Assembly (NCBI RefSeq): GCF_022814725.1 | Contig: NZ_CP093442.1 | Span: 1,240,001 to 1,304,000 of the forward strand | Reading direction: 5' to 3' | Length of the DNA stretch: 64,000 nt | Source: Bdellovibrio reynosensis | GTDB taxonomy: Bacteria; Bdellovibrionota; Bdellovibrionia; Bdellovibrionales; Bdellovibrionaceae | Shown here: positions 42,364 to 44,224 of the stretch, piece by piece | Layout of the letters: each line of letters begins with the position of its first letter | Numbering within the stretch: the stretch's first letter is position 1 | Program-made: the position numbers and the translations under genes | Notes under the pieces: model-generated | The model's input: only the letters and a program-made list of their open reading frames with translations | The model's database searches: none | What the model was told of the DNA's origin: nothing

Positions 42364-43410
42364 ATGTCGAGAATATTGATCCTATCCTGCGTTCTAATTT
42401 CATTCCTCCTTGGCGCCTGCACTAAAAAAGAAGAGACGTCTTCGGCACCAGTAAGCAAAGAAGTGAACCTATCTATTTGGGGTAACTATTTGTCCTCAGA
42501 AATGAAAGAAGCCTTCGAAAAAGAAAGCGGAATCAAGATCAACATCTCAAACTATTCTTCAAATGAAGAGTTACTGGCAAAAATCCAAGCCGGAGCCTCG
42601 GGCATCGACGTAGCAGTCCCATCCGACTACATGGTGGAAGTCCTAGCAAAAATGGATCAACTAGAACCACTAAACATGGACCAAATCCCCAACAAATCCC
42701 AAATCGACGAAAAATTCCTAAAACAAAGCTACGACCCAGAAAACAAATTCTCAGTCCCCTACACATGGACCACAGCCGGCATCGCTGTAAATAAAGAACT
42801 ATACAAAGAAGAAATCAAAAGCTGGAAGGACCTATTGGCCAACCCAAAATTAAAAGGCAAATTTGCCTTACTAGATGACGTCCGCGAAACAATGGCAGCG
42901 GCCCTAAAAATGAACGGCCACAGCGTCAACACCACAAACGAAGAAGAAATCAAAAAAGCCAAAGCAGTTCTTCTTAAAACAAAAAAAGACGTAAAAATGT
43001 TCAGCAGCGACACCATCGACATCCTAAACAACAAAGAAGTAGCAGCAGCGCAAACATATTCATCTGACGCCCTACAAGCAGCAGCCAAAAACAAAAACAT
43101 AGCCTACATCCTTCCAACAGAAGGCGGAACAGTAGCAATTGATAACTTAGTAATTCTAAAAGGCAGCAAAAATAAAGAAGCCGCTCACAAACTAATTAAT
43201 TTCCTAATGAGCGAAAAAGCCGAACAAAACAAAGTATCAACAATCTACGGTGGCCCAGTACTAAAAAACACCAAAGCCACCCTTGCTGAGGATTTAAAAG
43301 CCAACAAGGCACTATTCCCAGAAGACACCAGCAAACTAGAAAGCTTGAAAGACCTAGGCGATAAAACAAAACTATACGAAGACGCCTGGACAGAAATCAA
43401 AACGAACTAA
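42364..43410 (+). CDS. potD: Polyamine-type substrate-binding lipoprotein PotD
   Basis: 348 residues with lipobox LLGAC near residue 19. NLSIWGNYLSSEMKEAFEKE, GIDVAVPSDYMVEVL and the C-terminal KLINFLMSEKA match PotD-type spermidine/putrescine-binding proteins, which feed PotABC. AAGGA precedes the ATG. After about residue 30 its codon use differs from its neighbours: third positions are mostly A or C, and by hand 19 of 32 leucines use CTA. It ends in a strong terminator. Confidence 0.92.
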   Translation: MSRILILSCVLISFLLGACTKKEETSSAPVSKEVNLSIWGNYLSSEMKEAFEKESGIKINISNYSSNEELLAKIQAGASGIDVAVPSDYMVEVLAKMDQLEPLNMDQIPNKSQIDEKFLKQSYDPENKFSVPYTWTTAGIAVNKELYKEEIKSWKDLLANPKLKGKFALLDDVRETMAAALKMNGHSVNTTNEEEIKKAKAVLLKTKKDVKMFSSDTIDILNNKEVAAAQTYSSDALQAAAKNKNIAYILPTEGGTVAIDNLVILKGSKNKEAAHKLINFLMSEKAEQNKVSTIYGGPVLKNTKATLAEDLKANKALFPEDTSKLESLKDLGDKTKLYEDAWTEIKTN

Positions 43411-43432
43411 AATCCAGCGAAGCAAAAAAACG

Positions 43433-43456
43433 AAAAGGCCCCGAAAGGGGCCTTTT
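43433..43456 (+). terminator. Rho-independent terminator of potD
   Basis: AAAAGGCCCC-GAAA-GGGGCCTTTT with a GAAA tetraloop, then a further T. A textbook terminator 22 bases after the potD stop. Confidence 0.92.
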
Positions 43457-43512
43457 TCATTTCTCGTAGAAGCGTAAAAGAACTAAGTCTTGCAGTTTTT
43501 TATTAGATCCAG

Positions 43513-43664
43513 ATTTGAAATTGCCAGTGGGCTTGGGAGATTTTCGGAGTAAGGCCTTTGCCGGCGCCACGATGGCGCGAACCGCTCCGCAGGAGCGGCG
43601 GCAACCGAGCCCGGATGGCGTGCCTTACGCAGAAAATACCCCAAGCCCACTGGCAATTTCAAAT
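43513..43664. repeat. Long imperfect palindrome with branched inner hairpins
   Basis: In the 397-base gap between potD and a small membrane-protein gene, 25 bases at 43513-43537 are perfectly inverted at 43640-43664. Partial pairing continues inward (GATTTTC-type and GTAAGGC-type blocks). The apex holds two more perfect hairpins: GCGCCA-CGA-TGGCGC (43564-43578) and CCGCTCC-GCA-GGAGCGG (43582-43598). The result is a roughly 150-base cloverleaf-like fold with no credible coding frame. It may be a structured RNA or a mobile palindromic repeat; type unknown. Confidence 0.75.
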
Positions 43665-43686
43665 CCCGCGATCGAAGCAAAAAATG

Positions 43687-43793
43687 AAAGGTTCTAGACG
43701 GCACAGGGTCCACTGCCAAGCTTCAGGAAATCCCCCTAAAAGGCCATAGGCCAATACCCGGCGAAGCACCACCCTGTGTCCTGTAGAACCTTT
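43687..43793. repeat. Second imperfect palindrome beside the first
   Basis: AAAGGTTCTA (43687-43696) pairs with TAGAACCTTT (43784-43793), and CACAGGG (43702-43708) with CCCTGTG (43772-43778), with a five-base mismatch between. Inside is GGCC-ATA-GGCC (43742-43752). It lies just past the stop of the minus-strand membrane-protein gene. No clear T run, so it is not a standard terminator. Confidence 0.6.
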
Positions 43794-43807
43794 GATTTAA
43801 GAAAAGA

Positions 43808-44071
43808 TTATTTCTGCGCAGGCTCCACAGCCAAAGTCTCCGCCGCCTTCTGGCTTCGTTCTGCACTCATGGGTTCTAAGTGAAACCCCGAATACAGGCA
43901 CGCCATGCCGACGAGCGTGAAAACAGTCCCCGTTGCAAGATAGAAGATAACACTTTTTCTATCTTGCTTAAAAAGACAGTAACTTGCGCCTATTAATAAC
44001 ATAAGCGGTCCAAGGACCACAGTTGACGACAGCACTTGCCTTAAGGCAAATGAGCCAAGCTCTATACTCAT
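43808..44071 (-). CDS. Small membrane protein of unknown function
   Basis: 87 residues with two hydrophobic helices (VLGPLMLLIGASYCLF and IFYLATGTVFTLVGMACLY) joined by a basic turn (KQDRKS), so the loop is probably cytoplasmic. A polar tail follows. AGGTGG fits ATG 44071 better than the GTG at 44080. No family recognised. Confidence 0.65.
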   Translation of the reverse strand: MSIELGSFALRQVLSSTVVLGPLMLLIGASYCLFKQDRKSVIFYLATGTVFTLVGMACLYSGFHLEPMSAERSQKAAETLAVEPAQK

Positions 44072-44224
44072 AACCACCACCTACGTTCAAATATTTTGGT
44101 TATTCTGTAGAACTATTCGGCAGAACTTTTAGGTAGCTAAAGTTTTTACTTCAAACTAATGATCCCTGAGAAAATTATTTCGCTAGGGTAAGGAACACTC
44201 ATTTCTGGGATAATCATATTGAGA

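Follow-up and report, generated by a model that had tools for sequence, protein, structure and literature searches.

The described systems closest to the palindrome studied here are REP/BIME repeats with their RAYT transposases, miniature elements (MITEs) derived from IS1-family insertion sequences, and the attC sites of integrons. REP elements are 20–40 nt long and have a 5' GTAG/GGAG tetranucleotide, while attC sites have RYYYAAC/GTTRRRY boxes and stand in cassette arrays. We know of no earlier account of the hairpin family reported here, and the literature that we searched, the coverage of which was incomplete, yielded no description of such repeats in Bdellovibrio.

The DNA analysed, referred to as the window, is a 64,000-nucleotide stretch of the Bdellovibrio reynosensis genome, and the palindrome occupies its positions 43512–43665. 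We consider it probable that this palindrome is one copy of a non-autonomous, interspersed, REP/MITE-like family of palindromic DNA, a giant hairpin of 150–200 nt found in Bdellovibrio and its relatives. In common with REP/BIME repeats, the elements are interspersed, palindromic and mostly intergenic, occur in many copies, stand singly or as inverted pairs and likely act as folded DNA. Unlike them, they measure 150–200 nt, lack the GTAG/GGAG tetranucleotide at the 5' foot (by inspection of alignment A1, below), and have a cloverleaf apex and locus-specific arms; no linked RAYT gene was found. With the MITEs of IS1 they share dispersal, a non-autonomous character and an IS1-like carrier that makes 9-bp target duplications, but solitary copies are without the terminal repeats of the carrier, and their long stem does not constitute a conserved terminal repeat. 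The attC sites form an attractive analogy in their recognition by structure, variable stem and small conserved base boxes (here TTCGAAC/GTTCGAA). These boxes, however, differ from those of attC, the Bdellovibrio copies are dispersed and not arrayed, and the apex is conserved where that of attC is variable.

Structure and surroundings of the palindrome

The gap that holds the palindrome is flanked by potD (42364–43410, +), the product of which is a polyamine-type binding protein, and by a convergent ORF for a 90-residue membrane protein (43808–44080, −). Nearly every Bdellovibrio genome that was searched has this ORF in conserved form, and it is therefore a real gene. The inverted repeat has arms of 44 nt (43512–43555 and 43622–43665, +) that are 91% complementary and enclose an interior of 66 nt (Table 1). 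A reading of the sequence alone had described a perfect inverted repeat of 25 bases and two inner hairpins, with no T run and no credible ORF. That description held: the perfect repeat measures 26 bp, both hairpins (P3 and P4) were recovered, no ORF in the palindrome found support, and the T tract that follows the GC hairpin of an intrinsic terminator is absent from 43513–43664. A 6-bp stem, P2, which that reading had left unnamed, encloses P3 and P4. Folding of positions 43513–43662 gave −94 kcal/mol for one strand and −96 kcal/mol for the other; dinucleotide shuffles gave −52 and −54 kcal/mol (z = −10.7 and −9.6), and none of 200 shuffles was equally stable.

Table 1. Features of the palindrome and its neighbourhood (window positions), with the copies upstream of pilM in the last line
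Feature	Position	Strand	Evidence or remark
Whole detectable palindromy, outer part weak	43489–43690	+	Opposite-strand self-match, 72%
5' outer box GATCCAGATTTG; family form TTCGAACAGATTTGG	43506–43517	+	Recurs in oriented B. reynosensis copies
5' stem arm, locus-specific	43512–43548	+	Not common to paralogous copies; 43512–43537 pairs perfectly with 43640–43665
Conserved core	43539–43644	+	Covariance models R1 (109 bits, E 4e-25) and R2 (107 bits)
Apical structure	43549–43628	+	Stem P1 is 43549–43555/43622–43628; 5 of 7 pairs changed on both sides in 14 B. reynosensis copies
P2 stem TTGCCG/CGGCAA, enclosing both hairpins	43558–43604	+	43558–43563/43599–43604
P3 hairpin GCGCCACGATGGCGC	43564–43578	+	Every pair kept in 14 of 14 copies
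P4 hairpin, variable tip, CCGCTCC GCA GGAGCGG	43582–43598	+	3 pairs changed on both sides, 100% paired
Conserved 17-nt segment CCGAGCCCGGATGGCGT	43605–43621	+	Unpaired or 3-bp hairpin GCC/GGC; invariant alignment columns
3' stem arm, locus-specific	43629–43665	+	Folding, inverted-repeat search
3' outer box CAAATCCCGCGATCGAAGC; family form CCAAATCCCTCGTTCGAAGC	43660–43678	+	Recurs in oriented B. reynosensis copies
potD intrinsic terminator, outside the element	~43432–43459	+	Sequence GGCCCCGAAAGGGGCCTTTTT; stands between potD and the palindrome
Second imperfect inverted repeat adjoining the element	43682–43798		28-nt arms, 86%; 61-nt interior; absent from the sequence-only reading; no further copy found in a search of the B. 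reynosensis genome
Copies upstream of pilM (L042, L043, L044, L045, L066)	around 1501–1606 in these loci

A family of hairpins with a conserved apex

A single copy, with stem changes left uncompensated in relatives, had been named among the outcomes that would refute the sequence-only reading. Searches by DNA and by covariance model gave the opposite, a multi-copy family with covarying stems and two-sided stem changes. The DNA search of the B. reynosensis genome returned further copies, matched over the apex only, and covariance model R1 found 21 copies in this genome and 2–29 copies in each of 22 of the 24 Bdellovibrio genomes. A broader model, R2, extended the family to 33 of 141 genomes and to 11 of the 66 genera of the order. 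An exact DNA pattern also matched in other phyla and in one viral contig; none of these matches scored with the model, and spread beyond the order was rejected. On the 3.58-Mb chromosome of B. reynosensis, 18 of the 21 copies lie within 0.33–1.85 Mb.

Pairs were counted in alignment A1, which comprises 14 B. reynosensis copies. Stems P1, P2, P3 and P4 include 14 pairs changed on both sides; paired cells reached 91.8%, compared with 78% in shuffles, and the covariation score was 0.388 as against 0.122. Within P2, C-G is replaced by T-A in 5 of the 14 copies and T-A by C-G in 2.

Read from the outside inwards, a copy consists of the outer boxes, a stem of about 35 bp that is specific to the locus, an asymmetric internal loop below P1 (CGAAG opposite CGNAGNRG), the short and variable P1, P2 around P3 and P4, and the 17-nt segment ACYGAGCCNGGANGGCGT before P1 closes. 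Conserved across the family are the outer boxes, the internal-loop motif and the apex; the last of these, two hairpins inside a short stem together with the 17-nt segment around GAGCCNGGANGGCGTG, is common to every copy, and the segment recurs elsewhere in the order, in further genera and families. Copies occur in three arrangements: singly, as divergent pairs 280–730 bp apart (many copies), and inside an IS1-like insertion sequence, where the copy forms the terminal hairpin on the 3' side. Four B. reynosensis copies (L032, L034, L035 and L036) carry about 65 extra nucleotides between P3 and P4, which form two more hairpins, CCAAAAATAGCAGGATGCTATTTTTG and GTTGAGGGCAGGAGCCCTCAAC.

Occupancy of orthologous sites

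Nine genomes have an interval of 8–42 bp between potD and the 90-residue gene, and a tenth has 102 bp; in B. bacteriovorus HD100, G002 and G023 it measures 448–507 bp and holds a divergent pair of hairpins; B. reynosensis has one hairpin and the second inverted repeat. Presence and absence at orthologous sites could in part reflect loss. Among the three possibilities that the sequence-only reading had offered, the other two being a structured RNA and a nucleoid-binding site, a REP-type or miniature mobile element came through best. The hairpin is multi-copy and dispersed, most relatives lack it at the orthologous site, and some copies are paired or borne by an insertion sequence. It is far larger than a REP and shows no link to a REP transposase.

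The site downstream of the fusA terminator is an insertion hot spot: it carries a hairpin in 9 of 23 genomes (L282, L283, L287, L289, L294, L301–L304), always in one orientation and with several unrelated arms. Many copies lie at gene ends, with a stop codon within 60 nt. Such positions, and the occupancy of the fusA site, would suit an element that stops transcription in both directions, or acts as an insulator, at the 3' ends of genes, benefits the host and was spread by selection. We regard this as very unlikely, since the element has no T tract, terminators already lie between fusA and its hairpin, facing terminators are not enriched overall (128 copies, strict detector), and copies also occur upstream of pilM. 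The same lack of enrichment led us to reject a general tendency to insert behind terminators, which the fusA site had suggested.

Five Bdellovibrio species have a family member just upstream of pilM, in the type IV pilus operon, and all five copies are oriented alike relative to pilM.

Y1 transposases and IS1-like insertion sequences

Y1 transposase genes occur in 21 of the 24 Bdellovibrio genomes. Together with the interspersed palindromes, their intergenic sites and their BIME-like divergent pairs, this would agree with a relative of REP/BIME repeats that is moved by Y1 (RAYT-type) transposases acting on a single-stranded hairpin. We consider such an origin unlikely and rejected Y1/RAYT as a linked mobiliser. 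None of 30 Y1 genes had a hairpin within about 1.5 kb, the three genomes without Y1 matches contain 6–15 hairpins, and hairpin number does not correlate with Y1 number (rank correlation 0.21, p 0.32); the difference in size (about 150–200 nt versus 20–40 nt) also argues against it.

A palindromic word, AGGTGCCTGCTTCTTTTTT or GGTGCC...GGCACC, recurs near elements (flanks of L002 and L068). It is also found beside the single Y1 transposase gene of B. reynosensis (L176, 863–1135), with perfect inverted repeats of 36 nt.

Clustering of ORFs around about 57 loci brought out no recurrent neighbour gene. An IS1-like transposase was revealed by near-identical copies in G013, where four related copies of up to about 1.23 kb are 92–98% identical over aligned pieces and show recent movement of an IS1-like element. 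This insertion sequence has the ends AACTGATCC...GGATCAGTT and encodes a 292-residue IS1-like transposase (P0001). Transposases of the IS1 family have an IS1-type zinc ribbon, an HTH and a DDE catalytic domain; P0001 matched the NCBIfam model of the IS1 transposase at E 2e-11 and 44 bits (cut-off 100) and Pfam DDE_Tnp_IS1 at 0.0098, both below cut-off. The hairpin of the insertion sequence follows the transposase stop and precedes the right end, and relatives with transposases 58–63% identical have a hairpin at the same place, about 45 nt past the stop. Hairpin-bearing insertion sequences are bordered by 9-bp target duplications, GAGTGCTTT (L255, in which the apex is altered), GAAGTGATC (L254) and TTAATCTTT (L256). 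Around solitary copies the palindromy extends into the flanks, so that no target duplication can be delimited there. To our knowledge, a giant terminal hairpin is unusual for the IS1 family, which is otherwise simple-ended.

The constant place of the hairpin behind such divergent transposases, and the movement seen in the G013 copies, would suit hairpins that are the ends or decayed remnants of IS1-like insertion sequences, MITEs moved by the IS1-like transposase. Several observations make us rate this explanation as rather unlikely. The elements of more distant transposase relatives (35–43%) end right behind the transposase and have no hairpin, which is thus possibly a captured passenger. The right end of the insertion sequence, GATCAGTT, was found at only 2 of 121 solitary copies, as compared with 5 occurrences in control flanks. 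The B. reynosensis genome contains no IS1-like transposase of this type, yet has 21 hairpins, and hairpin and transposase numbers are uncorrelated. Since solitary hairpins lack the insertion-sequence end and B. reynosensis lacks the transposase, the hairpin is perhaps a module that the insertion sequence has captured, and not a remnant of it.

Coordinated change of the stem arms

Among the arm pairs of 128 copies, 6365 of 7448 are Watson–Crick, 178 are G-T and 287 are A-C; isolated mismatches inside clean helices comprise 53 G-T, 31 A-C and 118 others. Paralogues with cores 95–97% identical have an arm identity of 0.61–0.63, near background (about 0.55 for flanks), and most orthologues with cores 97–100% identical keep their arms. 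Between the orthologues L222 and L231, nine pairs have changed on both sides, grouped in four clusters, and none on one side only, and the copies upstream of pilM in HD100 (G006) and G023 differ by ten two-sided and two one-sided changes. At L218 and L230 the site and flanks are the same and the cores 93% identical, yet the arms are entirely different and perfect in each; these arms were not found elsewhere in the genus. L064 and L065 are identical or nearly so in core, 3' arm and 3' flank, and the 5' arm is perfect in one and about ten bases off in the other. At one site G002 and G023 carry the core in opposite orientations, and HD100 retains one arm only.

A structured RNA, also among the original suggestions, would here be a dispersed small-RNA or 3'-UTR family with an apex that binds a protein or target and a stem kept by compensatory mutation. 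The conserved, covarying apex, the RNA-type internal-loop motifs and the mapped attack-phase transcript that includes the HD100 copy at the potD site (below) all speak for it, and to that extent the suggestion stood. A selected RNA stem is expected to favour G-U clearly over other mismatches, and in the arms this preference is weak at most. G-T makes up 2.4% of arm pairs and is not commoner than A-C overall; in clean helices it is only 1.7 times as common as A-C, and other mismatches dominate. Covariation is strong but takes the form of clustered, two-sided Watson–Crick replacement, with one-sided G-U steps rare by comparison. Both orientations and divergent pairs occur, and the element has no demonstrated promoter or terminator of its own. 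In Rfam, the window copy matched no family at cut-off (the best hit, VA RNA, at 32.8 bits against 62, is a generic long stem), nor did family copies in 13 further loci. Taking these observations together, we judge an RNA family to be quite unlikely.

Template switching between inverted repeats is known to leave such marks: two-sided changes in clusters, correction of whole blocks and inversion of the core (PMC8794818, PMC8604942). Judged from aligned copies, the clustered two-sided arm changes and the unfavoured G-T pairs appear to fit template switching better than selection on an RNA. The likeness to quasipalindrome template switching (PMC8794818, PMC8604942) lies in arms re-matched in one step, two-sided clusters and spacer inversion; the difference is that here the process would act time after time across the copies of a family that conserves its apex. 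Gene conversion of the core could instead account for some of the arm pattern, as could a constrained core with fast, neutral arms.

Inverted similarity of the flanks continues beyond the arms, over 40–120 nt, at 34 of 120 loci compared with 1.2 expected, and is gone by 200 nt. In G005 and G008 the end of fusA is among the sequences repeated there in inverted and decayed form, and B. reynosensis has a weaker inverted copy of the end of rpoD. As most of the genus has an identical protein end, the gene side is the original. Arms made everywhere from the ends of neighbouring coding regions were rejected: the strong arm mostly ends close to the stop codon, and only about one-quarter of loci have a significant inverted copy of host sequence, within about 120 nt.

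Our preferred reading, an interspersed family of palindromic DNA, draws on dispersal, presence and absence at orthologous sites, divergent pairs, carriage by IS1-like insertion sequences, a locus-specific and near-perfect stem, and coordinated arm evolution. We propose that the element acts as folded single-stranded or cruciform DNA, that its conserved apex may be recognised by a recombinase or transposase, and that the stem would need complementarity only and not a fixed sequence. Template switching between the arms during replication might then re-match them repeatedly, so that they diverge fast and in concert, and the element would spread selfishly. More tentative, and in our view doubtful, is a new class of mobile element in which a cloverleaf apex of about 90 nt is the mobile and recognised part and the stem is rebuilt at each site by copying of the flank. 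If so, structure would be passed on and stem sequence would not, a mode of inheritance that could set the family apart from known interspersed palindromic mobile elements. The hairpin family would be the first Bdellovibrio repeat family described, as far as we know. With well over 100 orthologous and paralogous copies, a conserved apex on unrelated paired arms amounts to a natural experiment on the making and keeping of long perfect stems, and bears on the open question of how compensatory changes come about, through selection or through the copying of a template. The hairpins can also serve as markers for tracing how the genome of a bacterial predator has been rearranged.

Transcription across the HD100 copy

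Locus L332 of HD100 (1338700–1339600) is orthologous to window positions 43403–44140. An attack-phase 'small RNA' of this strain, APsRNA6, has been mapped to 1,338,787–1,339,441 on the + strand (PMC3627812, Table 2). It starts 26 nt ahead of the ORF for the membrane protein of about 90 residues (GTG at 1338813) and spans the hairpin at 1339142–1339247. Probably, then, this transcript is an mRNA that carries the hairpin in its 3' end, not a non-coding RNA. In the same genome, the c-di-GMP-I riboswitch of merRNA lies on the correct strand inside the published interval 1,073,741–1,074,185 (PMC3627812).
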